Source: a virus
DNA: 42,819 nucleotides
Direction: 5' to 3' (one strand)
IMG/VR virus record: IMGVR_UViG_3300009151_000133
Location: 1 to 42,819 of that record
A program made the translations under genes and the position numbers. Under the pieces are notes generated by a model, which saw nothing but the letters and a program-made list of their open reading frames with translations, did no database searches and was not told the origin of the DNA. This document shows positions 1-13,935 of this stretch, in pieces. Every line of letters starts with the position of its first letter. The stretch's first letter is position 1.

Positions 1-1637
1 AAGAAAGGAGCTCCCCATTGATCACGACCTTTGCTTTTAGCATAGTCTATTTTGCCTTGTAACCATTCTTCGTTGGGTACATCAATGCTGAGACCTTCCG
101 CCACACCTTGCTTAACAAATTGAACATTTAATTTAGCATTTTTCCACAATGGATTTTTAGGATCCATTCTTTGTTGTAGCAACCATATAGCAGATACTCT
201 ATGTGCTCCATCTTCAAACTTGCCGTTTAACACTATTATTGGATCAAGTTGGGCTAATGACTCTGGATGTTTTTTAAAATACTCAGCATACTCTATTGCC
301 TTTTCAGTTACGTTCCAACTGTGGTAATCTTTAGCGTCCCAATCATCAACTACATTGTTATAGTAAGGCACACCGGGTATAGATGATATAATCTGGCCTA
401 CAGTCATTTGGCGAGTTTGTATGTTAGCATCAGAGCCAAACTGTTTTGGAGCACCTGAACTTGGTCCCGGTTGAGGGAAGCCCTCCGCCACACCTGACTT
501 GGTGGGTGGATAATATTTTACATCCACTACTTTAGTGCCAGAACCATCACTGTTCATTCTGAAATTATATTCAATCCAATCACCTGGATTGTGTGTGAGA
601 AAATACTCGATCACTTTCGGATCTCTGCGAATTTTTTCCGCCAATGGACCCAGCATCTGTAGCATTTTTTCTTGAATATTACTTTCACCTGGCTTGGTCA
701 CTGCCTGTTTTCCTGATTTGATTGTGTTCCAATTCTTTTGTGCAAATTCAGGATTGTACCAACGTTGAACCATTTTTGGGTCGGTCAATAACGGATCATT
801 GAGATATTTTTGAACTCCTGGACCAAGATACTTCAACATTGCCTGTTTGCGGTCTTGAATCCTCAATGGATCATTAGGATCTGGATCTTTGCCGCTGACC
901 AAGCCGGCAATATTGGTGATGATCACTGCTTCATCAATGCCACCGTCGCCCTGTTGAAAACTGCCAGGATCAACTGCAATTTTGGTCACAGCGCCACCCT
1001 TGCCTTGACCTGCCAGGGCCTGCCGAACGAAACTGGTGGCTTTTTCACCGTCGGGACTCATGTATGTGCCAATGTTGGCAGAACTTCCTGCTTTTCTCAA
1101 TAAGGGATAAGGCTTGCCAACACTGTCCTGTAATTGTTTTAATCTGTCAGATGACAGTATTGGTTCACCTCGATAAAACATATATGGTTGGTTTGATGCT
1201 TCCGCCACACTCGGCTTTTCAGGTGTCCACGACATACCCTTGCCGCCTTTGACAGTGGGTGTGAAACCTTGATCTCGGTAGAACTTGGTTAGTTTAGCTT
1301 GACTAACTTGACCTTTGTCCCAGGGAAACAATGTTAGCGTAATCCCATCTTGTCTGGCTAAATCTTGCAATACTTTCATGGCCCGAGTACCAACACCTTG
1401 ACGTAATGGATACGCCTGGAACCATTTGACTTCTACTGCATCTTTCTTGATCAGACTGGGAATTAAGTCAAACATGGCGAATTGCTGATCATCACCTTCA
1501 CCCCAGGTCATGACATGATTATTTTGCCACCTGCCAGGATACTCAGCATATACTTTGGCTATCCAAGCTCGTGCTTTACTCGGATCGGCGATACCTAATG
1601 TGTCATCTGCTTCTGGTATGAATTCATTTGCTCTCAT
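1..1637 (-). CDS. Partial multidomain polyprotein: leader, GNAT, ART-like, ParB/Srx-like modules
   Basis: The frame runs open from ATG 1637 to the window edge (545 codons), so the C-terminus is missing. Residues 1-9 (MRANEFIPE) look like a T4 capsid-targeting leader ending in Glu. A GNAT acetyltransferase module follows, with the acetyl-CoA loop RQGVG at 79-83 and a typical YRDQGF end. A module from about 148 has FYRGEP, GTYMSPDG and GIDEAVI, which could be the Arg, Ser and Glu motifs of an R-S-E ADP-ribosyltransferase. A ParB/Srx-like module has DGAHR. Modules are separated by SVAE|A (143-147), GVAE|G (382-386) and GVAE|G (511-515). It lies 7 nt after the stop of the upstream gene and has no clear Shine-Dalgarno, so translation is probably coupled. 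Domain names come from motifs only; the packaging role is inferred. Confidence 0.75.
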   Translation of the reverse strand, partial: MRANEFIPEADDTLGIADPSKARAWIAKVYAEYPGRWQNNHVMTWGEGDDQQFAMFDLIPSLIKKDAVEVKWFQAYPLRQGVGTRAMKVLQDLARQDGITLTLFPWDKGQVSQAKLTKFYRDQGFTPTVKGGKGMSWTPEKPSVAEASNQPYMFYRGEPILSSDRLKQLQDSVGKPYPLLRKAGSSANIGTYMSPDGEKATSFVRQALAGQGKGGAVTKIAVDPGSFQQGDGGIDEAVIITNIAGLVSGKDPDPNDPLRIQDRKQAMLKYLGPGVQKYLNDPLLTDPKMVQRWYNPEFAQKNWNTIKSGKQAVTKPGESNIQEKMLQMLGPLAEKIRRDPKVIEYFLTHNPGDWIEYNFRMNSDGSGTKVVDVKYYPPTKSGVAEGFPQPGPSSGAPKQFGSDANIQTRQMTVGQIISSIPGVPYYNNVVDDWDAKDYHSWNVTEKAIEYAEYFKKHPESLAQLDPIIVLNGKFEDGAHRVSAIWLLQQRMDPKNPLWKNAKLNVQFVKQGVAEGLSIDVPNEEWLQGKIDYAKSKGRDQWGAPF

Positions 1638-1644
1638 ATACGGC

Positions 1645-2514
1645 TTACATTACGTAAATATTGCCAACTGCACTTCTTAATACTTCAGCAAAATAGTCGG
1701 ACATGTCATCTGCTAATCCCTGTGCTTCATATTGTCTAGTAGACTCATCCCTATACTCCGGTTTTAACGTCATATATTTTGATGGCGTGCCCCAGTTTTG
1801 TTTTCCATAACCTAGATTAGCGGGCAATGGATTCAATGTTATTTTACCATCTTTGATATACTGAGCAAATAGTTCATATAGGAATTCGTATGGCCGTTTA
1901 ATTTGATTGCCACGGCTACTACGTTGTGTTCCTATGGCATTGAACAATGCATTATATTCCGGTGTTAGATCCCAGTTAGGAGCTCGTTGACTCTGGTTCT
2001 GCCCGGTTTTACCATATGCACGGTCTAATACTTGATTAACTGTACGGAAGAAGTATCCTTCGGCGTCGGGCCATGCACCTATTTTTGTATTCCTGCCACG
2101 GTTCCCAGCTTGAATAGCATGTCCAAATCTATGTGCCATGATCCAGGGTGTCATTAACTTTTTGGCCGCGCCCGAATTACCCACATACACTATTGTGATA
2201 GCATTTTCGCTGTTGGCTAAAATAGCCGCAGCATCTTTACCAAATATTGCTTTGATCAAGTCCGGTTCCATGGGGCCGTATTCATTGTATTTGCCGGTGC
2301 CGGGAATGTTGCTGAAAAATAATCTAAAATCGTAGGGTGTATTCTGCAGGAATTTCTGTGTCTTTAATTGGCTAACAGGATGTGGAATCAGCTTCTTATC
2401 CGCACCTCTAAATGGTCCTTGTTTGTCAAAGTTGCCCAGAGGCTGATAGTCAGCTAACGGGGCTTCCGTCACAGCTTGTTTACTAAGTTCAGTTATGAAT
2501 TCTACGGCTTTCAT
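1645..2514 (-). CDS. Putative head-packaged protein with HRFGH pseudo-metallopeptidase motif
   Basis: 289 aa. It starts with MKAVEFITE|L and has a second Glu-ending site, AVTE|A, at 14-18, so the first 17 residues look like a removable capsid-targeting leader. The core holds MAHRFGHAIQ (H128, R129, H132), which matches the zinc-binding helix of HExxH peptidases except that the catalytic Glu is Arg (codon AGA). A later LYELFAQYI helix could supply the third ligand. It may be an inactive peptidase fold, or a family that uses HRxxH. The ATG overlaps the stop of the upstream gene by 4 nt (ATGA). Function unknown; fold assignment tentative. Confidence 0.75.
   Translation of the reverse strand: MKAVEFITELSKQAVTEAPLADYQPLGNFDKQGPFRGADKKLIPHPVSQLKTQKFLQNTPYDFRLFFSNIPGTGKYNEYGPMEPDLIKAIFGKDAAAILANSENAITIVYVGNSGAAKKLMTPWIMAHRFGHAIQAGNRGRNTKIGAWPDAEGYFFRTVNQVLDRAYGKTGQNQSQRAPNWDLTPEYNALFNAIGTQRSSRGNQIKRPYEFLYELFAQYIKDGKITLNPLPANLGYGKQNWGTPSKYMTLKPEYRDESTRQYEAQGLADDMSDYFAEVLRSAVGNIYVM
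2488..2514 (-). repeat. 27-nt exact direct repeat coding the MKAVEFITE leader (copy 1)
   Basis: The 27 nt that encode MKAVEFITE are identical base for base to 3162-3188. Identity at silent positions indicates recent duplication or gene conversion of the leader alone, because the proteins diverge directly after it. Confidence 0.95.
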
Positions 2515-3188
2515 GTATACACCAAACTATCTATACGCTTATATTTAATATTAAACGCATTCATTAGTAATTCTACTTCCCGCAGACATTGATCTCGTGC
2601 ACCACCCATTAAATAAGCACCGTTAAACTGTTTTAGCTGTGCTACACTGGTCCAATTAACACTAATAGAATCTTCACCTAATTCTTGCATCGCTCCCATA
2701 ATCAATGATTGCTGTGGTGTTCGAGAATTAAATGGTGGAAACTGTAGATCTCTACTGTCAGATTTCTTTTGTTGGTATAACTCTCGTATAGTGGCAATGA
2801 TAGTTGCTGGTTCGACGCCTTGATCCATCCAAGACCTGAAATATCCATATCCTTTATCTACAATCTGAAAACGATTCCAATTTATAACTGGGCAATTGGG
2901 ATTTTCTATGTGCTCATCATTTTCTTCATCATATGAATATCTGACATCTTCTGGACAAATAGTATCATCCCAATATTGCTTTATATCTGCTACCGTATCA
3001 CCACTAAGCCCTTGATCTTCAGCATTAACAAACATCAATACAGGCCCGGTTTGTTTATTAACAAAATTAATAATCTCCGGAAATACAGCACTTTCGTCAC
3101 CATCATTCATACCACTATATTCGGGTTGAACATCCACAACTATACAAGGATGATTTGATCCTTCAGTTATGAATTCTACGGCTTTCAT
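2511..3188 (-). CDS. Putative head-packaged protein, possibly isochorismatase-like
   Basis: 225 aa. It begins MKAVEFITE|G, the same leader as the next gene, ending in a Glu-Gly cleavage-like site. The mature part starts with CIVVDVQ (Asp19), like the first strand and catalytic Asp of isochorismatase/nicotinamidase cysteine hydrolases. It ends with GGARDQCLRE (Cys201), placed like the catalytic Cys strand-helix of that fold. The intervening catalytic Lys was not identified, so this is a fold guess. ATGA overlaps link it to the genes on both sides, making it part of a translationally coupled chain from 5491 down to 1. Confidence 0.75.
   Translation of the reverse strand: MKAVEFITEGSNHPCIVVDVQPEYSGMNDGDESAVFPEIINFVNKQTGPVLMFVNAEDQGLSGDTVADIKQYWDDTICPEDVRYSYDEENDEHIENPNCPVINWNRFQIVDKGYGYFRSWMDQGVEPATIIATIRELYQQKKSDSRDLQFPPFNSRTPQQSLIMGAMQELGEDSISVNWTSVAQLKQFNGAYLMGGARDQCLREVELLMNAFNIKYKRIDSLVYT
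3162..3188 (-). repeat. 27-nt exact direct repeat coding the MKAVEFITE leader (copy 2)
   Basis: Identical to 2488-2514; see that entry. Both copies begin at the start codon of their gene. Confidence 0.95.
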
Positions 3189-5491
3189 TTCCCAGCCTTG
3201 GCCAAGCCTGCACCATTGTTAAAGCTAGGACTCCAGGATTCTGCATCAACTCCACCACGGGCCTTGCTCCAATCATATCCAGCACGATGTCCGGAACAAT
3301 CTTGTGTGCATGGACTGCCCAGAAACGATAACTCATCTAATTGCTCAGCATCACCAGGTATTAATAATTCTGGCATACGGTATTGACTAATATCAACTGG
3401 ATATGGCCGTAAGCTTTGTTTATATTCTTCAGCATATCGTTGCCGATCTTCCGGAGTTTTTGCCCTATAGAACTGATTTGCGATAGCCATATCCCCTACC
3501 AGGGTACCGGCAGCAATCGCTATCTTTTTTGGACCAAAGAATTTAAGTTTGTCACTATCTTTCATGGTTAGACTATAGAAGGTTGCTTCCCATTTATCCG
3601 GATGTAAAGCATATTTCACATTCTGTCTTTCCGGAACAATATCAGCTAATGTATCTTTACCTGGATGGAATCGCCCTAGCCGGGTTAACATCACTGCATT
3701 GTCTTCGTCTTCTTTAAGTAACAATGCCGGTGCACCCTTACTATCTACTTGCAAACCCATTTTATTTGCTTGTCGTGCAACTTCTCCTGGACGAACATCT
3801 TTAGTAAGGGCCATTACAAAACGAGGATCTCGAGCTTGTGCTCGGGTGGGGATATAACCGGCAGCACCTTCCGTAACTGAATCAAAATGTTCAGGATGCA
3901 ATTCAGCATAGTCACGCATCAACACACCGGCTAGGGAATTAGCTTGGTTTTCGTATTTGCTGCCTGTTTCACCACTGGTGTCAGGCATATCTTCTACCTC
4001 ACTTTGGCGTTGATGCACTAATTCATGTGCCACTGTACGCAATACATCCATGACATGTCTGTTGCCAATGCTTACTTCTAATGCCCCAGTCTCTGTGTTG
4101 AATCGTCCGAATGTTTTATTCCGTGCCGACCACTGTGGATCACGACGAAGCTGTATAGCAGGTGACTTTTCCAAGCCCAGATGCTCACTGCAGAATTTAA
4201 CAAAATCTGCGAGTATAGTCTTGGTACTAATCCTTTCTTTTTCCAGTATCATCTTAGTGGTTGGATTTACACCATCTGGGCTAATACTTGCATCTTCATT
4301 GGTTATTGTAATAGCAGGCAGTTCAGTATTAAACTTCAGGACTAATGCAGTTCTAAACTTATTATAATCCGCCGCTGTTGAAAAAGTAAAGGTGTGGAAC
4401 ACACTCAAATCTCTCATGATATCGGATGGATATGTTTTTTGTCCATGTGAGGACTTGAACACTAAACTATCTTGTGCTCTCGCCAGGAATTCCATATAAC
4501 TTGGCTGATCCAATGGCATTATCTTGTTATTAACCAGTGACAATGGAACCACAATATATTTTTGATTTTTCACTGGAGTCGTTGATAAGTCAAATAAAGA
4601 TACAAAATACTCCTTTTTATCTTGATCAATGGATTCTGTCAAATTACCTTTGATATAAAATTCTTCAAAGATACTCATTTTATCCTCCAGACTCAATCCT
4701 TCATCCAATGATGACCAGTCTAATCTTTTTGTATAATCTTCACTAACTGCAAAACCATACTTGACTGGCACTGGACGACGTTCAACCAAGCTTAGTTCTC
4801 GATCACGGCCGGCAGTTAAAGCATTAGCTAATCTGCCAATATCACCCTGTGTTCGTAGCATTTTAAATGCGAGATTTTCTGGACCAAACTCACCATTCCG
4901 AGCCAGACCTGCTTTACGCATATCTAATATCTTGTGCTTTAGATCAGACATGAGTTCTAAATCATCTGATGCGATGGCTTGTTTTATCCTTTGCTGCACA
5001 TCTTCATATTTGCTACGTGTGCTTACATCATTTACTGTGTGCTTTTGTCTACGTGGAACTTCCACCCAATCATTGTTCAACACACTATAAATGCCCTGGC
5101 TCACATGTGTTTGATTTACATCCTGCACATATAGTTCTACATCGTATCCGGAGATTTTAATATCATGTTTATCGTTGTATTCATACTTTTTTGCATTGAA
5201 TAATTCTTTATATACTTCGTTATTCATTTGTGGCAAATCTACCACCAGATGTAAATCTATATCACTGTGTGGAGTATAGTTATAAGCAGCATTAGAACCG
5301 GATATAGTTATATCCCGTAGTTCATAGCCGTTAACACCAAGGAATTCACGGAAATCATCTGCGATGCTTAATAGATGTCGGCGCACCTCCGGCAGCAAAT
5401 GTTCGTCTTTGCCAAAGAGTCGGGGATTCAGATGATCGTTAAATTTAACGGCATCTGCAAGATTATAGGATTCCAGCTGTTCAATGTTCAT
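3185..5491 (-). CDS. Polyprotein: pol-beta-type nucleotidyltransferase, HELVH peptidase, phage C-terminal modules
   Basis: 768 aa. Residues 60-85 hold GSNAAYNYTPHSDIDL (GS with Asp77/Asp79), the polymerase-beta nucleotidyltransferase signature. A zinc peptidase centred on AHELVH (H489, E490, H493) has a likely third ligand at E514. A module from 542 (GAAGYIPTRAQ, DPRF) is a type I associate with marine T4-like phages. A Cys-containing tail (CTQDCSGH) closes the protein. Glu-ending linkers fall at module borders: LDE|G 262-265, LTE|S 284-287, VTE|G 539-542, LDE|L 718-721. Unlike its downstream neighbours it lacks the MKAVEFITE leader. A late-promoter octamer sits 4 nt before the ATG. The enzymatic folds are fairly clear; substrates are unknown. 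Confidence 0.85.
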   Translation of the reverse strand: MNIEQLESYNLADAVKFNDHLNPRLFGKDEHLLPEVRRHLLSIADDFREFLGVNGYELRDITISGSNAAYNYTPHSDIDLHLVVDLPQMNNEVYKELFNAKKYEYNDKHDIKISGYDVELYVQDVNQTHVSQGIYSVLNNDWVEVPRRQKHTVNDVSTRSKYEDVQQRIKQAIASDDLELMSDLKHKILDMRKAGLARNGEFGPENLAFKMLRTQGDIGRLANALTAGRDRELSLVERRPVPVKYGFAVSEDYTKRLDWSSLDEGLSLEDKMSIFEEFYIKGNLTESIDQDKKEYFVSLFDLSTTPVKNQKYIVVPLSLVNNKIMPLDQPSYMEFLARAQDSLVFKSSHGQKTYPSDIMRDLSVFHTFTFSTAADYNKFRTALVLKFNTELPAITITNEDASISPDGVNPTTKMILEKERISTKTILADFVKFCSEHLGLEKSPAIQLRRDPQWSARNKTFGRFNTETGALEVSIGNRHVMDVLRTVAHELVHQRQSEVEDMPDTSGETGSKYENQANSLAGVLMRDYAELHPEHFDSVTEGAAGYIPTRAQARDPRFVMALTKDVRPGEVARQANKMGLQVDSKGAPALLLKEDEDNAVMLTRLGRFHPGKDTLADIVPERQNVKYALHPDKWEATFYSLTMKDSDKLKFFGPKKIAIAAGTLVGDMAIANQFYRAKTPEDRQRYAEEYKQSLRPYPVDISQYRMPELLIPGDAEQLDELSFLGSPCTQDCSGHRAGYDWSKARGGVDAESWSPSFNNGAGLAKAGK

Positions 5492-5495
5492 TTTA

Positions 5496-5504
5496 TATTT
5501 ATTA
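5496..5504 (-). promoter_or_regulatory. T4-type late promoter (TAATAAATA), 4 nt from ATG
   Basis: TAATAAATA read on the minus strand, followed by TAAA and then the ATG at 5491. It is close to the T4 late consensus TATAAATA. A start about 6 nt downstream would fall at the start codon, so a leaderless mRNA is expected. Confidence 0.6.
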
Positions 5505-5532
5505 CAAAAACAAAAGCCGCAGAATCTGCGGC
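5504..5532 (-). terminator. Rho-independent terminator after the glycosyltransferase gene
   Basis: On the minus strand a GCCGCAGA/TCTGCGGC inverted repeat (5516-5532) is followed by TTTTGTTTTTGT. It lies 28 nt past the glycosyltransferase stop and just before the late promoter of the next gene, separating two transcription units. Confidence 0.85.
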
Positions 5533-5559
5533 CTCGGTTCCGACACGATGCCGTTGCAG

Positions 5560-6537
5560 TTATGCTATTGTTTTACTTTTACTCTTGTTTTTCTTGCTAG
5601 TAGACATGATTTTCCCAACAAGTGGTGCAGGAGCAACAGCAACAGCAGGAGCATCAGGTACCCCACCGCCCAGTGCCGTCACATCAATAGCAGCCCGCGC
5701 CCCAGCTGGGACATCAACTGGTGCTGCCACTGCAACTCCTTGTGCAGCTTGATTTGCTTGTGCGATAACATGCAGTTCTTTATACACTTGATCCTGAGCA
5801 GCTTGATCAAACACATAAGTCCCCACGTGACGTAGCAACACACGTTTATCTACCCAAATCTTGCCACCAAGATCACGCCAATTTTCGCAGAATGCCCAGT
5901 CTTCACTGTAGTAGCGATTCTCACGTACCCCAGTATCAAAGTATGTTTTCATATCTTTGTTTAGTTCTGCCGGCAGTCCAATGTCGTTGATGAATGGTTT
6001 AACTGATGGGTGACCTTTCATTTTCTCAAATACCGCACGTTTGATCAGCATAAAGCCTGTGCCAGTTTTAGTGACTTCTTGTAAGCCATCTACGCCTTCT
6101 TCTGCGCCTTCAAAGCCATTCACACACCATTTGATGGGTAAGCTTTTCATGGGATACAAGCCACCAATGATGTCCACATCACGATTTAGCAGTACCAGCA
6201 AATGCCAAGGTTCCCAGCCAATATCAGCGTCGATAAACATAAGGTGGGTGCTGTCGGGATTGCTAAGGAATTTTGCTGTGAGTGTATTACGTGCCCGGGT
6301 AATAAGGCTTTCATTGGTCATTGTTTCTACTGTCCAATCAATGCCCAGCTGTCTGGCTGTGTTAGCCCATTTAACCGCCGACATAAAAAATTGTTCTGTA
6401 CACATTCCGCCGTACATAGGAGTGCAAATATGCACCTTGGTAGTTTTCAAATAGTCAATGTTTACTTGAACATTTTGTGGTTGATTTGGCAGTTGTGTAG
6501 CTGGCGGTGCTACAGGTGTTGCTTGTGGGTCAGACAT
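5560..6537 (-). CDS. GT-A type glycosyltransferase
   Basis: 325 aa. The fold starts at about residue 34 (KVHICTPMYGG). HLMFIDADIGWEP carries the DAD metal/nucleotide-sugar motif (103-105), as in GT-A glycosyltransferases. Later landmarks are a GTGFMLIKR strand and a YYSEDWAFCENW motif, typical of phage members. The first 25 residues and the stretch from about 265 are Pro/Ala-rich and low-complexity, and the protein ends in a Lys-rich tail. The Shine-Dalgarno AAAGGGAA precedes ATG 6537, with a late-like AGTAAATA about 25 nt upstream. It probably modifies phage DNA, a virion protein or the host surface; the acceptor is unknown. Confidence 0.85.
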   Translation of the reverse strand: MSDPQATPVAPPATQLPNQPQNVQVNIDYLKTTKVHICTPMYGGMCTEQFFMSAVKWANTARQLGIDWTVETMTNESLITRARNTLTAKFLSNPDSTHLMFIDADIGWEPWHLLVLLNRDVDIIGGLYPMKSLPIKWCVNGFEGAEEGVDGLQEVTKTGTGFMLIKRAVFEKMKGHPSVKPFINDIGLPAELNKDMKTYFDTGVRENRYYSEDWAFCENWRDLGGKIWVDKRVLLRHVGTYVFDQAAQDQVYKELHVIAQANQAAQGVAVAAPVDVPAGARAAIDVTALGGGVPDAPAVAVAPAPLVGKIMSTSKKNKSKSKTIA

Positions 6538-6616
6538 GTAATTCCCTTTATGTTTGTGATAATATTTACTACAGTTTACACCGGTGGCAAATATTTCTCA
6601 ACAAGGGAATACTAAG

Positions 6617-9600
6617 TTATCCTCTAAAAGGGTCTTCGTCTATGTAGTCCGGACCGTCGGTGAAATCCACACGATATTTGCCGGTTTCGGGATCGAGTCG
6701 TGTCACAGGCTTTTTGCCCTTGCGAGCAAGTTCTTTGCTGGCTGCTACTCTAGCTTTTAACCGACTTATAAGTTCGTCAGATCTATCATAATCGGGTACT
6801 TCGTCAGCCTCGGACATGGGTTTATGTTTGATCCATTCGTCGGGTATCATGTGATGTTTGTTCACAAACTTATCATGCAATTCTTCCGGAGTTATTTTGT
6901 GTTTTGCTGCCAGGTATTTCATCAAATGATCAATTGCCGCATAGTTGCTGTGTGGTTTCATATCGTGTTCAAGGTCGGTCACAGCATCTTCGTCTACCGC
7001 CGTTTCTCCTTTAAGTGCTTGTAACAATGCCCCGGCAACCACACGATCTTTTTCTTGTTCGTCGTTGGGTAACTGAGCATATTCTATGTTCATCAACTTT
7101 GCACGTTGTTGCAGTTTTGCTTCTAATTTACCAGCAGCTTTTAATTTCTCTGTATCGTCAAATTGCTCAGGATTTTGCACAAATGCTTTGGCTGTGACAT
7201 TCCATCCTTTGTGTATAGCATCGCTAATCTTTTCAATGTCTGTGACACCGGCATCGATCATGCGTTTAGCAAACTCTGCTGATTTTAAATTTGCTTGCCA
7301 ACCAAAAGTATTACCGGGACTGCTACGACCATACTGATAAGCATTATCTAATGCAGCATCACTGATAGTTGCCAGTTGTTGTATGCTTAACTGTGTTGCA
7401 TTTTCCTTGATACCCTGTATGTTTAGGGCAAAATTAGCACGTTTACGTTCTAATGGAGTACCATGAGCTTTAAGACTTTTTAGTTTTGTAGCGCCAATCT
7501 TCTTGTCAAGTGGAATGTGTTCTTGCTTGTGTAGCGCACCTTTCTTGACCAGTTTGGCAGCATCGGCTAGCGAGCCTTCCGCCACGCCTTGCTGTATTGT
7601 GCTTAGTCTAGCAAGTTCTTGTTCGCCTTCAGGAGTCAAAAACCAATAGCCGTCAGCATCTACAATCCATCCAGTGTCAGATAAACTGTCATACACTCTG
7701 CTTTGAGCACGACTTAGACTTTGACTATCTTCTTGAAATCCCAATCCATGATCATTTGCAACTTCAATAGCTTTGAGTAGCAAGGCCTTGCCATAACCTT
7801 TACCGCGCACATCATCAGTTACTTCTGCCTGATTGTGTACGTCATCAGTTTCGGGATCTCTAAAAAATGAAAAATGCCCAACATTTTTTCCATCAGCGAT
7901 TGCAGTAACAGTAAAACTACTTTGATAATTGTTAGTAGATGCTGTTTGGAATTGTACTGCTGATGCGTCAGCTTCATAAACCTGGTCTTCCTTAACCGCC
8001 TGTTGACTTTTATTTTCCAGTCTGACTAATTTCTTAACATGAGCGATAGCTTGATTTTTACTCATCATACCAATAGCAGGATTCTTCCTGTTCTTTTTGC
8101 GTTCTATGTCGTAGATAGTCCAGTATTGGTATGTGCCACCACCGTAGGATTTTAGTTTATGTCCTTCGGCAGGTTGCAACATGAATCTATCTTTTCCATC
8201 AACACTGATAGTTACTATAGATTTGTCATCTGAGATTTTGATATTTTCAGAGCCTTCCGCCACATCGTTGTCTTTGACTAAACGCAATGCAGTACCGGGT
8301 AAGTTATTTGCTTGGCCACCATCATCTAAATCAACATAATAAGTTTTTGGAGCACCGTTAAAAGCACCATGTTTAATTTCTCTAATCCAACCTGTCTTAC
8401 CAGAATCTGGGCCTTTAACAATCTTTACTTTCTTAGTCAGACTCTTGCTTTCCGCCACAGCCTGTCGAACGGTTGTTGGCCTATTTTGGTACCTAATTGT
8501 TCCAATCATCGGTGAAATTGCGGGATCTGTTATATTTTTTCCTGGTCTAGTAGAATTAGGAATAGGCATTTCTTTAACTCCTGCCTTTGCAAAAAGATTT
8601 CTAATTTCTTGTTGTTTAGCAGAGTCAACTGTAGGATTTATCATATATCCCACTATGCCAAGATCTTTGAATGGTATATAATTTAAAGGTGTCAATATAA
8701 CTTCTTCATATTCTGATCCAGTACTACCTCCTGCAGATGCAACAGATTTGCCTGCACTGGTTTTAACAAAATAACTAATAGCTTGTTTTATTTTTGATTG
8801 TGCATCGGCCAATGCTTGCTGATTAGTTTTATCTGCAAAATAAGTTTTAGTAGCAAAAATAACAAATTGACGACTGCCTGCTATATTTGCTCCTGCAATT
8901 TTAGATAGTACTACAAGATCGTCTGGTGTTAAATTTTCTACTCCGTCGGCTAAGCTATACAAGTCGGTTACTCGATTTACTCCAGGTAATGCGTTTAGTA
9001 TAAATCTGAGCGCATTTAGCTTATCGGCTGGTCGATCAACCGACTGCATTTTATTTTTTTGTCTAAGAATAGACTGATCTACTACAAATATAACTCCATT
9101 GGCAATACCGGATGACCCTTGATTATCATCGTCTTTTGTTGTAAGGGCATATCTCCAGTTTCTTGTAAAACTAACAGCTCTAAGTTTGGACCCCGTCCGT
9201 TGTTGATTACTAGTATTAGTTTTAAGACCGTTAATAATGATATCATTTAAATCGTTAATGTCAGTACCAGTAGCATGATAAAGATAATTGCCGCCTACTG
9301 CTTCATTCAAACTTTCCTCACTGCCAATTGCAGTATCCAGCATTTTGACCACAGTCTGTGCTAATTTTGGATTGCTTTGTGTTTTAGGATACAAACTCAT
9401 CACCAATGCTGTTTTGCGTTTATCATTCAATTTGGGCCATGCTGTACGTATCTCTGTGGCAGATGTCATTCCCGGTCCGAACTCCACTGTGGGCAAGTAG
9501 GCCATATACCCATTCTTGTTCATGGGATTTAATTCTGCTGTGATGGGCTGGAGATATGCCGGCGACCCATCTTTTTTAGTACCACCTGCCTGTGGTGGTT

Positions 9601-9898
9601 TCGTTCTATCTTTTTCACTACGGACGAATATTAGTGCAGTAGTCTCCGGATCATAATTCTGTGTTATTTCTCTTGCTTGGAATGGGCTTTTGACTTGTAT
9701 AAAATGCCCGGCTTCAACTCCAGCTAATTTTGCTAGTTTTTCTTTTATGGCAAATGGGAATGGACGCTCAGAAGTATCATTGGTTGCTGCCACATATACA
9801 TCTGCATCAGGAAATGCCTCGCGAGCAGATGTATACAGAGCCATGTGCCCGGCATGAAACGGATGGAAACCTCCCGGCATGATCACTAATTTTTTCAT
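6617..9898 (-). CDS. 1,093-aa polyprotein: HxGH nucleotidyltransferase, ART-like, KOW-like, GNAT and further modules
   Basis: ATG 9898 is chosen because the PGGFHPFHAGH domain starts directly after it; the upstream extension begins at a TTG inside the previous gene. Modules: nucleotidyltransferase with HAGH (15-18) and SATEIR (146-151), as in NMN adenylyltransferases; an ADP-ribosyltransferase-like module with YHATG (207-211) and VSFTR; a KOW/SH3-like module with KIVKGPDSGKTG; a small beta module; a GNAT module with RGKGYG (698-703); then helical modules. Linkers at the borders: LNE|A 197-200, VAE|S 481-484, VAE|G 546-549, VKE|D and VYE|A 635-643, VAE|G 772-775, IKE|N 830-833, MSE|A 1028-1031. 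It has no MKAVEFITE leader. The polyprotein reading is inferred from the regular linkers. Confidence 0.85.
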   Translation of the reverse strand: MKKLVIMPGGFHPFHAGHMALYTSAREAFPDADVYVAATNDTSERPFPFAIKEKLAKLAGVEAGHFIQVKSPFQAREITQNYDPETTALIFVRSEKDRTKPPQAGGTKKDGSPAYLQPITAELNPMNKNGYMAYLPTVEFGPGMTSATEIRTAWPKLNDKRKTALVMSLYPKTQSNPKLAQTVVKMLDTAIGSEESLNEAVGGNYLYHATGTDINDLNDIIINGLKTNTSNQQRTGSKLRAVSFTRNWRYALTTKDDDNQGSSGIANGVIFVVDQSILRQKNKMQSVDRPADKLNALRFILNALPGVNRVTDLYSLADGVENLTPDDLVVLSKIAGANIAGSRQFVIFATKTYFADKTNQQALADAQSKIKQAISYFVKTSAGKSVASAGGSTGSEYEEVILTPLNYIPFKDLGIVGYMINPTVDSAKQQEIRNLFAKAGVKEMPIPNSTRPGKNITDPAISPMIGTIRYQNRPTTVRQAVAESKSLTKKVKIVKGPDSGKTGWIREIKHGAFNGAPKTYYVDLDDGGQANNLPGTALRLVKDNDVAEGSENIKISDDKSIVTISVDGKDRFMLQPAEGHKLKSYGGGTYQYWTIYDIERKKNRKNPAIGMMSKNQAIAHVKKLVRLENKSQQAVKEDQVYEADASAVQFQTASTNNYQSSFTVTAIADGKNVGHFSFFRDPETDDVHNQAEVTDDVRGKGYGKALLLKAIEVANDHGLGFQEDSQSLSRAQSRVYDSLSDTGWIVDADGYWFLTPEGEQELARLSTIQQGVAEGSLADAAKLVKKGALHKQEHIPLDKKIGATKLKSLKAHGTPLERKRANFALNIQGIKENATQLSIQQLATISDAALDNAYQYGRSSPGNTFGWQANLKSAEFAKRMIDAGVTDIEKISDAIHKGWNVTAKAFVQNPEQFDDTEKLKAAGKLEAKLQQRAKLMNIEYAQLPNDEQEKDRVVAGALLQALKGETAVDEDAVTDLEHDMKPHSNYAAIDHLMKYLAAKHKITPEELHDKFVNKHHMIPDEWIKHKPMSEADEVPDYDRSDELISRLKARVAASKELARKGKKPVTRLDPETGKYRVDFTDGPDYIDEDPFRG

Positions 9899-10930: not shown

Positions 10931-11671
10931 TTATTTATGAGCTATTATATCAATGGTGCTGCGTACTAATTTAGCCGATATTAAATTTAACATGAGAATA
11001 TGGCTCATACTGTCATGATCAATAAAATGTGAATACCGTATCCAAGTCCTACGTTCAGTATCGACCCAGTTGGCAAGTTCGGGTGATAAGCGTATCTCTG
11101 CTGCATTTGCTTTAAAAAAACTCACCAAACTGCGTTTTTGTTCATGTGTAAGGGTGGAACTTCTAAAATATGTTCTATGTCGATGCTGCGGATTGTGCCG
11201 CACGATCGTGCCTTTTTCCCGTGTGATAATAGCTTGAGTAAATTGCCTAGTCATAAAAGAACTCTGACTAGCCGTGGAGTCACTCCGGGCAGTAAGATCA
11301 TTCAATGCAGATAGTAATTTTAACTCATTTGTATAAACATAAACCCGATTGGAATAAAATATTAATTTGACCTCCTGGGCCGTGTTTTGTAACAGATCCA
11401 CAAATTCAAATAACTCATTTGCATTGTTTAACTCTTTGCCAGTTAGTGCATCGTTTAACTCCATGCCCGGTGTTTGTTTCCACTTTATTCCCCAGTCTCG
11501 ATCCCACAGGCGGCGTTTTTTCAGCGACTTTATCACAGCGTCTTTGTCTGCTGTAATCGAATTTGCCGTACGATGTGGGCGTAGGGTACTGGCATTTTTT
11601 ATCCCGATACATGCACAGTATTTCCATCGGGAATGAAACAATCTGTCAGATTCTACTGGGGTAATTTTCAT
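10931..11671 (-). CDS. Uncharacterised protein, translationally coupled to clpA-like gene
   Basis: 246 aa, basic, no recognised domain. The first 60 residues are rich in Arg, Lys and Trp (WKYCACIGIKN, RLWDRDWGIKWKQ). A middle stretch (EVKLIFYSNRVYVYTNELKLL) resembles part of a small alpha/beta fold. The ATG lies in a 4-nt overlap with the stop of the ClpA-like gene, so it should be made together with that unfoldase; a link to its targeting is possible but unproven. Confidence 0.75.
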   Translation of the reverse strand: MKITPVESDRLFHSRWKYCACIGIKNASTLRPHRTANSITADKDAVIKSLKKRRLWDRDWGIKWKQTPGMELNDALTGKELNNANELFEFVDLLQNTAQEVKLIFYSNRVYVYTNELKLLSALNDLTARSDSTASQSSFMTRQFTQAIITREKGTIVRHNPQHRHRTYFRSSTLTHEQKRSLVSFFKANAAEIRLSPELANWVDTERRTWIRYSHFIDHDSMSHILMLNLISAKLVRSTIDIIAHK

Positions 11672-13935
11672 TGTTCGATCCGAATATAACCGTTGTCATC
11701 CACGATGGGAGTAGGTTCAATCTTGGTTGCGATTATCTCAAAATCCACTTTATCTTCTTTCATGACTGCTGTTACTGTGCAATCAACTAGGCGATCAAAT
11801 AATATACGTTTGCTTAATGGTATACGGATAAGTTGATCAATTTTACGTCCCAGGGGTCTTGCACCCATTTTAGGATCATAACCAGTCTTGGCCAAATGAT
11901 CCACCACAGTTTCATCCAGGTTCAGGGTAATGTTCTTGGGAGTCAGACTTGCTTTAAGTTCATCAACAAACTTGATCACGATCTTCTTCACAGCTAATTG
12001 ATCTAGTTTGGTAAATTTGCAAATGCAATCAATACGATTACGGAACTCCGGCTTGAAAAAGTCCTTCATTGCTTTATCTTCTTCGCCAACACGTTCCAAT
12101 GCTCCACCAAATCCAATGTTGTTATTTTCGTTTTCCTTTGCACCTAAGTTACTGGTCATGATAATGATGCAATTCTTAATATCAATCGTTTTGCCATTGC
12201 TGCTGGTTATCTTTGCTTCGTCCAGCATCTGCAACAAGATGTTGGTCACATCCGGATGTGCTTTTTCAATCTCGTCAAATAGTATGATTGAGAAGGGATT
12301 CTTGCTGAGATCAGATATTAGTTTGCCACCACCCACATTACCATCTTCAAATCCCACATAGCCCGGGGGAGCACCAATCAAGCTGGATACTGTATGACGT
12401 TCCTGATACTCGCTCATATCATACTTTAACAGTTTCATATCTAGGTTCTTGGCAAGCAATTTAGCTAGTTCAGTCTTGCCTGTGCCAGTTGGTCCAAGGA
12501 ATATGAAACTGGCCATGGGTCGTGTGGCATTTCCAATACCGGAAAAATTGATATAAACACGTTCCAATACTGCATCCACAGCTGAATCTTGACCGTAAAG
12601 CTTTTGCTTGATATTGCTTTCCAGCTCAACAATCTTGGTGCTACGTTCATTCTGTAAACGATCAATGGGCACACTGGTAGTTTTTGCTACTTGAGCCATG
12701 ATCATGTCTTTATCTATTGTGACTCTGCCTTTGTCCTTCACACGCTCACGGGCACAAGCCGCATCCAGCAGGTCAATGCTCTTGTCAGGATTTTTGCGAT
12801 CATGTATATAACGACTGCTGAGTTCCACAGCTGATAGTATTGCCTCTGTGGAGATCTCCACATTATGGAAGTGTCCAAGCCGTGGGCTAAGTCCAGTAAG
12901 GATAAGTTCTGTGGTTTTGTTCGAAGGTTCATCTATGCTTAGCCTATGGAAACGTCGCATAAGAGCGCGATCTTTTTCAAAGCTTTCGTAATATTCTTCC
13001 CATGTTGTACTTGCGATAACCTTTAGTTTACCTTTGGTAATAGCCGGTTTCAACATATTAGCAAAGTCAAGTGTGCTGCCACCCCCACCACCAGCACCTT
13101 TCATGGTATGTGCTTCATCAATAAACAGTATGCAATTCTTCTTGGTTTCAAGGGCGGAGATTACCATTTTGAATTTCTCTTCAAATTCACCACGATACTT
13201 TGATCCGGCCAACAAGCTACCGATCTCAAGACTCCAGACTTCGTGATCCCGGATAAACTCCGGCACTGTGCCTTTAACTATTTCCTGTGCCAATCCTTCT
13301 GCGATACAAGTTTTACCCACACCCGGATCACCCACCATGAGCACGTTGGCTTTGAATCGTCGAGCAAGCACAGTAATCATTTCCGCTAATTCTTCCTGAC
13401 GTCCAATCAGGGGTTCGAGTTTATCGTTTTCGGCTGCTGCTGTAAGTCCGATGCAGTATTCTTCCAGTATCTCGTCAGCTTGTTTGTTGGATAGTTTGTT
13501 TGTGCTTTTGTTATAATTCTTCTGCCAGAAATCAACAAACTCTTGTTTCTTAACACCATGTTTGAGCAGGAAGTAATGTGCATGGCTGTTATTTTCTGCC
13601 ATTATACTAAGATAGATATCGATTATCTCCATACCTTGACGGCCGGTGAACATGACCTGTGTCAGTGCCCGATTAAACATACGTTCTAACGCATTAGTTC
13701 TACGTGGAGGACTGTCAGAATTCCTAACAAGATTTACCAAGCCATTTAAGTATGTGTCGATGTCAGCATCCATAAGATCAACATCAACACCAAAGTTCTC
13801 AAGAAGATGTCTAAATGGCCGATGTCGGACCGTGGCCAACAGTAGATGTTCTGTTAGCACATATTCATGTTTTTTCTCTGTGGCAATCTCAACTGCAAGA
13901 TTTACTATCAGTTCAATTTCGGGATTTTGATTCAA
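11668..13935 (-). CDS. clpA: ClpA/ClpC-like AAA+ unfoldase
   Basis: 755 aa. It has an N-terminal Clp repeat region (about 1-130) and two AAA+ modules. D1: Walker A GDPGVGKT 202-209, Walker B ILFIDEA 269-275, pore KYRGEFE 246-252. D2: Walker A GPTGTGKT 481-488, Walker B ILFDE 551-555, pore GYVGF 525-529. The long ClpB middle coiled coil is absent. An IGF tripeptide at 607-609 sits where ClpA/ClpX carry the ClpP-docking loop, so it could work with host ClpP. The start is TTG 13935, chosen because AAGGA lies at proper spacing and the homologous N-terminus begins there. An early promoter precedes it. Likely role: remodelling or degrading host proteins. Confidence 0.95.
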   Translation of the reverse strand: MNQNPEIELIVNLAVEIATEKKHEYVLTEHLLLATVRHRPFRHLLENFGVDVDLMDADIDTYLNGLVNLVRNSDSPPRRTNALERMFNRALTQVMFTGRQGMEIIDIYLSIMAENNSHAHYFLLKHGVKKQEFVDFWQKNYNKSTNKLSNKQADEILEEYCIGLTAAAENDKLEPLIGRQEELAEMITVLARRFKANVLMVGDPGVGKTCIAEGLAQEIVKGTVPEFIRDHEVWSLEIGSLLAGSKYRGEFEEKFKMVISALETKKNCILFIDEAHTMKGAGGGGGSTLDFANMLKPAITKGKLKVIASTTWEEYYESFEKDRALMRRFHRLSIDEPSNKTTELILTGLSPRLGHFHNVEISTEAILSAVELSSRYIHDRKNPDKSIDLLDAACARERVKDKGRVTIDKDMIMAQVAKTTSVPIDRLQNERSTKIVELESNIKQKLYGQDSAVDAVLERVYINFSGIGNATRPMASFIFLGPTGTGKTELAKLLAKNLDMKLLKYDMSEYQERHTVSSLIGAPPGYVGFEDGNVGGGKLISDLSKNPFSIILFDEIEKAHPDVTNILLQMLDEAKITSSNGKTIDIKNCIIIMTSNLGAKENENNNIGFGGALERVGEEDKAMKDFFKPEFRNRIDCICKFTKLDQLAVKKIVIKFVDELKASLTPKNITLNLDETVVDHLAKTGYDPKMGARPLGRKIDQLIRIPLSKRILFDRLVDCTVTAVMKEDKVDFEIIATKIEPTPIVDDNGYIRIEQ

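Follow-up and report, generated by a model that had tools for sequence, protein, structure and literature searches.

Linker-bounded cassette proteins of a T4-superfamily phage as candidate head-packaged effectors

We analyzed a 42,819-nucleotide stretch of viral DNA (IMG/VR record IMGVR_UViG_3300009151_000133; hereafter the window), whose first 9898 positions encode large multidomain proteins with short, recurring linkers. In our reading, these are probably cassette polyproteins of large T4-superfamily phages, which would be packaged in the head as effectors and whose linker would act both as a protease site and as a recombination joint. Several features point this way at the level of sequence: the chains are modular, their junctions share a protease-site signature, leaders and linkers stand in for one another, the linker is conserved as DNA, recombination breakpoints lie at linkers, and related contigs encode gp21 and gp23 homologues. 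Together, they strongly support the view that the cassettes are separable, with leaders of the T4 type and, at their borders, sites of the gp21 type.

We infer the cutting, packaging, injection, and effector function of these cassettes as follows. The chains would be strings of independent domains, many of them enzyme-like, connected by junctions that are short, flexible, and terminated by [V/I/L/M]-x-Glu. A T4-type capsid-targeting leader would bring the chain into the prohead core, where a gp21-like prohead protease would remove the leader and then cut after the Glu of each junction; the mature domains, now separate, would remain beside the DNA inside the head until infection delivers them into the host. 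The roughly 20-base DNA of the QGVAE↓G linker (the arrow marks the putative cut) would be the standard homology joint for module recombination between phages, so that each new cassette would arrive in frame and already bearing its cleavage sites. The T4 precedent on which an earlier note on this DNA had drawn is confirmed by the literature: gp21 cuts after L/I-X-E, and a leader of about 10 residues sends internal proteins into the head (PMC9026906).

Junctions between modules

Positions 3–9898 are filled by six open reading frames (ORFs), all judged real and all on the minus strand, as are all genes, modules, leaders, and linkers of the window given below. Throughout, P1 to P4 and P6 are names of proteins, and “subsite P1” (likewise P2, P3, P4, and P1′) denotes a residue position around the putative cleavage site. 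The earlier note had treated five large proteins as one set; this holds for P1 to P4 and P6 and does not extend to the whole interval, because the ORF at 5560–6537 (phrog_1574) has neither leader nor linker and falls outside the set. The motif [VLI]xE[GAS] occurs 15 times in the proteins compared with 7.5 times in shuffled proteins, an excess that is modest alone (p = 0.0065); the corresponding figures are 4 vs. 0.08 for VAEG, 6 vs. 0.19 for VAE[GAS], and 2 vs. 0.0005 for QGVAEG. Of the 15 sites, 14 are found where a leader ends or where a homology block has its border, in agreement with the earlier count of at least a dozen linkers at module borders. The exception, IDE↓A at P1 residues 234–236 (930–938), is inside a homology block and common to relatives; it may be a chance match or an extra cut within the ART-like module.

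Compared against all loci, P1 (3–1637) consists of homology blocks at residues 1–148, 146–390, 381–517, and 502–545, which meet at E146, E386, and E515, with the leader ending at E9. Its linkers are PSVAE↓A (1197–1216) between the GNAT-like and ART-like modules, SGVAE↓G (480–499) before the ParB-like module, and QGVAE↓G (93–112) after it. P6 (6617–9898) yields blocks at residues 1–205, 194–489, 478–546, 631–778, 826–972, and 967–1075, with junction Glu residues E201, E483, E548, E642, and E774. Here LNE↓A (9296–9304) follows the nucleotidyltransferase (NTase), QVYE↓ADASAVQF (7973–7981) precedes the GNAT module, and the linkers QAVAE↓S (8447–8466), NDVAE↓G (8252–8271), and QGVAE↓GS (7574–7593) mark further borders. 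The junctions of P4 (3185–5491) are LDE264, LTE286, VTE541, LKE594, and LDE720; the third, SVTE↓GAAGYIP (3869–3877), reads NVAE↓SSGYIP, YNLNE↓ASGYIP, or IAE↓ASGYIP in relatives, where LKE594↓DEDN reads QDVAE↓GESN. P2 (1645–2514) has a linker-like AVTE↓A (2461–2480). Residues directly following a linker Glu in the window include GSLADAAKLVK, GFPQPGPSSGAPK, and ADASAVQF. Many linkers of related loci (L208, L022, L052, L343, and others) read QGVAEGSLNE↓, giving two possible sites in tandem, VAE↓GS and LNE↓, the second of which is a canonical L-x-E.

Hundreds of related viral loci contain the same modules in varying contexts, bounded by such junctions. P6, searched against viral contigs, matched 70 loci, most of them only through one 135-residue conserved helical module (P6 residues 836–972; 826–972, or 6983–7423, as a homology block); this module, which resembles RyR domains by eye, is found in about 60 other and quite different proteins, with a junction on both sides where it is internal. 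The ParB-like module (P1 residues 387–515, 93–479) corresponds to about 400 bp of DNA common to many phages in different contexts. It occurs in 30 proteins, starting after VAE↓G-V-P-Q-P-G and ending in VKQGVAE↓ in most of about 25 contexts. Across 255 mosaic ORFs, strict linkers divide the chains into up to nine segments, and clustering these segments with mutual coverage resulted in 45 families with at least three members, 39 of which have at least two different neighbors.

Module ends were then aligned without requiring any motif. Glu occupies subsite P1 at 45 of 48 N-terminal and 45 of 47 C-terminal ends of the helical module and at 23/23 C-terminal and 20/22 N-terminal ends of the ParB-like module; nearly every aligned end has one of V, I, M, and L at subsite P3, and subsite P2 is free. 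[VILM]xE is present at 96–100% of module ends as against about half of random windows from the same proteins. The Glu column is kept in the homologues of P3 (33/36) and P2 (40/40), among which the domain is internal to a longer chain in 7 and 13 cases, respectively, and follows a short leader in the others. Judged by these residues, the junction signature (Glu at subsite P1, aliphatic P3, free P2) resembles that of a T4 gp21-type head protease.

Linker DNA and module exchange

The earlier note overlooked both the conservation of the linker as DNA and its role as the main recombination joint. For QGVAEG, the main linker, conservation extends to the DNA sequence (AGCAAGGTGTGGCGGAAGGC); the logo spans about 20 bases, A[AG]CAAGGTGTGGCGGAAGGC, and falls to background on either side. 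Among 153 non-redundant GVAEG sites, we found only 20 different 15-mers, and the probability that the GVAEG codons of two sites are identical is 0.34, compared with 0.007 from codon usage. The linker Ala codon is GCG in 90% of cases vs. 10% in the same genes, and identity at fourfold-degenerate sites is 0.79/0.90 within linkers, compared with 0.43/0.54 for the modules next to them when the same pairs of sequences are compared. In viral loci fetched by an exact 16-mer DNA pattern, the frame is VAEG in 111/111 copies among the matches listed; 18 long contigs contain 62 copies with at most two mismatches and one copy of the reversed pattern. We considered whether the linker came from bacteria or has copies in hosts and discarded this, as exact 16-mers in genome_contigs were, among the matches listed, singletons from unrelated phyla at chance level. 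The isolate phages of the collection searched gave only chance-level matches to linker DNA, and no cultured phage with the element was found among them.

We defined a breakpoint as the end of a DNA homology block between loci, inside mosaic genes, and counted it as lying at a linker if one was within 20 bases in both sequences. Loci fetched by the linker itself were left out of these counts to control for ascertainment; the result is the same with them. At 95% identity or more, 101 of 111 block ends (91%) lie at linkers in both sequences, as do 236 of 278 at 90% or more, these being 30 and 68 distinct sites, respectively, and the counts not independent events. For comparison, a random position in these genes, assessed in a single sequence, falls at a linker with a frequency of 0.08–0.09 (0.087 for the set at 95% or more). 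Three blocks of the window have their ends on junctions or no more than about 10 bases away: a 402-bp GNAT block at 7574–7975 (91% identical to L217), an 859-bp block at 8447–9305 (91.5% to L001), and a ParB block of about 400 bp at 94–495 (85–93% to about 20 loci). The first has one end at QGVAE↓GS and the other, at 7975, in QVYE↓; the second ends at QAVAE↓S; and homology of the third ends at 478–502, at SGVAE↓G, and at 89–96, at QGVAE↓G. Since DNA homology blocks stop at them, the linkers are, as judged from the aligned loci, the usual joints of module exchange.

A linker that is conserved as DNA and forms the main recombination joint needs a second function beside cutting. We tentatively raise the possibility that the ~20-base linker is a dedicated dual-code element, with its DNA selected for cassette exchange, possibly via a phage recombination enzyme or nuclease, and its protein selected for head-protease cutting, such that an exchanged cassette would be released automatically as an effector; general homologous recombination at the shared sequence may nevertheless suffice for the exchange. 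Linker DNA conservation and breakpoints at linkers would equally be seen if the linkers were recombination joints only, with VAEG a harmless flexible spacer and the chains acting as intact multidomain polyvalent proteins, and exchange alone would yield a fixed reading frame. However, where the DNA has drifted, Glu at subsite P1 and an aliphatic residue at P3 are kept while subsites P2, P4, and P1′ vary, and the same Glu is kept at the ends of N-terminal leaders that are unlike the linker in sequence; we consider this account unlikely, though it deserves real weight. Alternatively, the linker DNA may act at the level of RNA or translation, where it could, for instance, cause a pause or mRNA processing between domains. 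This would account for the rare GCG and GTG codons, including the strong excess of GCG over its background, but the logo has no start-codon or Shine-Dalgarno-like spacing pattern, and both the exchange breakpoints and the invariant Glu would be left unexplained, making it the least probable account that we weighed.

Leaders and head genes

Combined recombination joint and protease site, the function that we favor for the linker, also draws on the leaders. As noticed earlier, three proteins have a leader ending in ITE or IPE: the capsid-targeting-like MRANEFIPE↓ of P1 (1611–1637) and MKAVEFITE↓ of P2 and P3 (2511–3188). All end in L/I-x-E, as T4-type leaders do, and the leaders of P2 and P3 homologues mostly have L or I at subsite P3 and E at subsite P1. 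The P2 and P3 leaders are identical in DNA over 27 bases (2488–2514 and 3162–3188), as if the leader too were a recombination joint, or a recent copy. Leaders resembling capsid-targeting sequences (CTS) are found on 292 of 2827 ORFs of related loci vs. 14 in shuffled N-termini. At gene starts the T4-like form is MRAxEFIxE↓, and the same module inside a chain follows a linker instead; for example, MRIQEILAE↓GRAHPVIVVDVQPEYS corresponds to EKGVAEGSLNE↓GLAHPVIVVDVQPEYS, and MRSQEFITE↓APLADYQPLG to VQELNE↓APLADYEPMG. The GNAT module of P6, preceded by QVYE↓ in the window, comes after a leader in L217 (MRAQEFITE↓GFLGE↓ADASAVQF). Because the same domain follows a leader or a linker, with Glu directly before it, the two are interchangeable in front of the same mature start. 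At two loci (L174:12633 and L179:7050), a linker lies just before a stop codon and directly upstream of a leader-starting gene (MRAN...), like a split-off cassette.

Two cultivable Synechococcus phages, S-CRM01 (L503:4683-5342) and MA01 (L505:3558-4259), encode basic proteins with the T4-like leaders MRTFESFLAE↓A and MKTYQELMEV; their genes lie two to three positions ahead of that for the large terminase and adjoin relatives of the P6 C-terminal module. These phages bear on the idea that the chains are tail, fiber, or baseplate components with short conserved linkers rather than head-packaged effectors, as one isolate protein with the P6 C-terminal module, from MA01, is annotated as a tail fiber protein. 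Yet the shared stretch is about 60 residues of an 1883-residue protein, the S-CRM01 relative sits between gp16 and gp17 beside the leader-bearing protein, and CTS-like leaders and enzyme-like modules are unfit for fibers; we regard a tail role as very improbable.

Head packaging, the reading we prefer, calls attention to the head genes of related phages. Fifteen long contigs with these modules or homologues carry a Peptidase_S77 gene (T4 gp21 type), and the same 15 carry a gp23-type capsid gene. The capsid proteins start with a propeptide in which ALLEG is invariant, and every sequence read has L-x-E↓[S/N/T] just before the mature region, at the place where T4 gp23 has its site. The earlier note had proposed comparing the capsid cut site of a gp21-like protease with VAE↓G: related contigs have the genes and a capsid L-x-E, and subsite P3 differs, being L in the capsid protein and V in the linker.

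Alternatively, the chains may indeed be cut, but with metallopeptidases embedded in them, such as the HELVH module of P4 and possibly the HRxGH protein P2, taking the place of the head protease. P4 does have a zincin-like motif, and autoprocessing of this kind was proposed for polyvalent proteins (PMC5512222). Against this, the site signature resembles that of gp21 and recurs in leaders and in the capsid protein, the catalytic Glu of HExxH is missing from P2, and no metallopeptidase domain was found in P1 or P6, so that cutting there would have to be in trans; we judge this improbable. A ClpA/B-like AAA+ gene (11668–13935) lies close to the cassette cluster and, in several relatives, within about 15 kb of linkers. 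It has homologues in 10 of 10 long relatives tested (53–70% identity), with identities of 68–70% in G029, G031, and G028; the first two of these carry both head genes. Its product may help unfold or package the chains.

Several points weigh against head packaging and head-protease cutting. The window is a fragment without gp21 or gp23 genes, P4 and P6 have no recognizable leader, and we found no proteomic data for this phage lineage. The counts of homologues and of locus pairs should not be taken as numbers of independent events. Pfam gave no match for most modules, whose effector roles are putative. In the AlphaFold models of P1 and P6, each of the nine main sites falls in a stretch with a predicted local distance difference test (pLDDT) below 50, as anticipated if no fold runs across the VAE↓G sites, and this is a weak test, since the models have mean pLDDT values of 52 and 59 and about 45% of residues fall below 50 anyway. 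The P6 helical module and NadD-like N-terminal domain are confident in the model; the P1 model was discarded for fold assignment. Finally, the commonest internal linker, V-A-E, has V at subsite P3 where leaders and capsid protein have I or L, and the specificity of T4 gp21 is reported as L/I-X-E only (PMC9026906). Because related head proteases differ at this subsite, as in SPN3US, where the site is A-X-E (PMC10052503), V may be accepted there or may make a slower site.

Module content and known systems

The earlier note had assigned enzyme-like modules throughout the five proteins, and these assignments fared unevenly. Those that stand are the GNAT in P6, the HxGH or NadD-like NTase fold at the P6 N-terminus (9314–9898; pLDDT > 90 over residues 1–90; B. 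subtilis NadD 1kam as first match, E = 0.0015), the pol-beta-type NTase in P4 (phrog_36119 match and a Pfam match of a relative), and the ParB-like module (ParB_N Pfam match in relatives). The ART, KOW, HELVH, and HRFGH peptidase calls stay at the level of motifs, and the Pfam M78 match to HELVH in P4 is weak and below the cut-off. By this assignment, P1, which is incomplete and runs off the window edge, carries a leader and GNAT-like, ART-like, and ParB-like modules; P2 has its leader, the second site, and then the HRxGH protein; and P3 a leader and a hydrolase-like domain. P4 consists of the pol-beta-type NTase, a metallopeptidase-like HELVH module, an SGYIP module, a module at residues 595–714, and a C-terminal module, and P6 of NadD-like NTase, ART-like, KOW-like, unknown, GNAT, helical, and C-terminal modules. 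The NTase modules of P4 and P6 almost always start their protein, also in relatives, without a recognizable leader. Several disparate activities per chain, the mark of polyvalent proteins, are found here, several of them at motif level only.

Some families have further features. Homologues of P3 have invariant Asp19, Lys112, and Cys201, a pattern of isochorismatase/nicotinamidase-like cysteine hydrolases; PDB and Pfam searches gave no match, and we keep this as a lead only. The P2 family has an invariant H-R-x-x-H (not HExxH) and a downstream invariant ExxxE, suggesting an inactive or unusual zincin-like protein; the only PDB match of P2 is a weak one to fragilysin (E = 0.67). Another recurrent type is a basic module with stretches of the RRKSFCAR type (segment families 4, 5, and 33; Pfam DUF6321 and DUF5872 matches), often placed near chain ends and also present in cyanophage proteins; such modules could bind packaged DNA.

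If our reading is correct, it shows how phages build and renew a multi-effector payload, swapping DNA in frame and separating the products with the head protease via the same joint. It would also provide a simple sequence rule for injected effectors, by which [VIL]xE↓ closing a leader or linker marks the domain behind it as a candidate; this could be used in uncultured, mostly freshwater, and often jumbo-sized phages, most of whose modules have no known function. Loading of cargo proteins into phage heads would likewise gain a natural plug-in rule.

Short conserved joints for modular exchange are known from T-even gp38 adhesins, which exchange at conserved motifs, and from the boundary sequences of lambdoid phages; we know of neither as a maturation cleavage site. 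In a search that left out preprints and reached few subscription papers, we found no published description of VAEG linkers, prohead-protease-cut phage polyproteins, or leader-bearing fusions. The closest systems share parts of the arrangement. CTS-like leaders occur on varied internal proteins, and the CTS has been proposed as a route to load varied proteins (PMC9026906). T4 IPI-III and Alt resemble the chains described here in having a leader with a hydrophobic-x-Glu end, gp21/gp23-type head genes, and variable cargo behind a conserved leader, but their cargo consists of single proteins with terminal propeptides, whereas up to nine segments per chain and a repeated internal site are present here (PMC9026906). 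In phiKZ and SPN3US (proteases gp175 and gp245), the pattern is similar in that head and ejection proteins are cut behind many short x-x-E motifs; those cuts remove propeptides, whereas here they would separate cargo domains (PMC10052503). Polyvalent proteins of phages and conjugative elements, with 2–15 disparate domains (Iyer et al. 2017), include, as here, GNAT, ART, pol-beta NTase, ParB-like, and zincin domains, and are predicted to reach the host along with the DNA and to undergo processing into units (PMC5512222). For them, release is ascribed to embedded metallopeptidases or a C-terminal assemblin-like peptidase, and the pol-beta NTase is reported only from conjugative elements, in contrast to the phages here; the accessible text does not describe a standard linker, a head-protease site at each border such as we propose here, or a DNA-level joint (PMC5512222). 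The domain set and the many activities per injected chain are thus already known from polyvalent proteins, and the leader system from T4; what is new is that every border has a standard putative cleavage junction, which trades places with leaders and doubles as a DNA joint.

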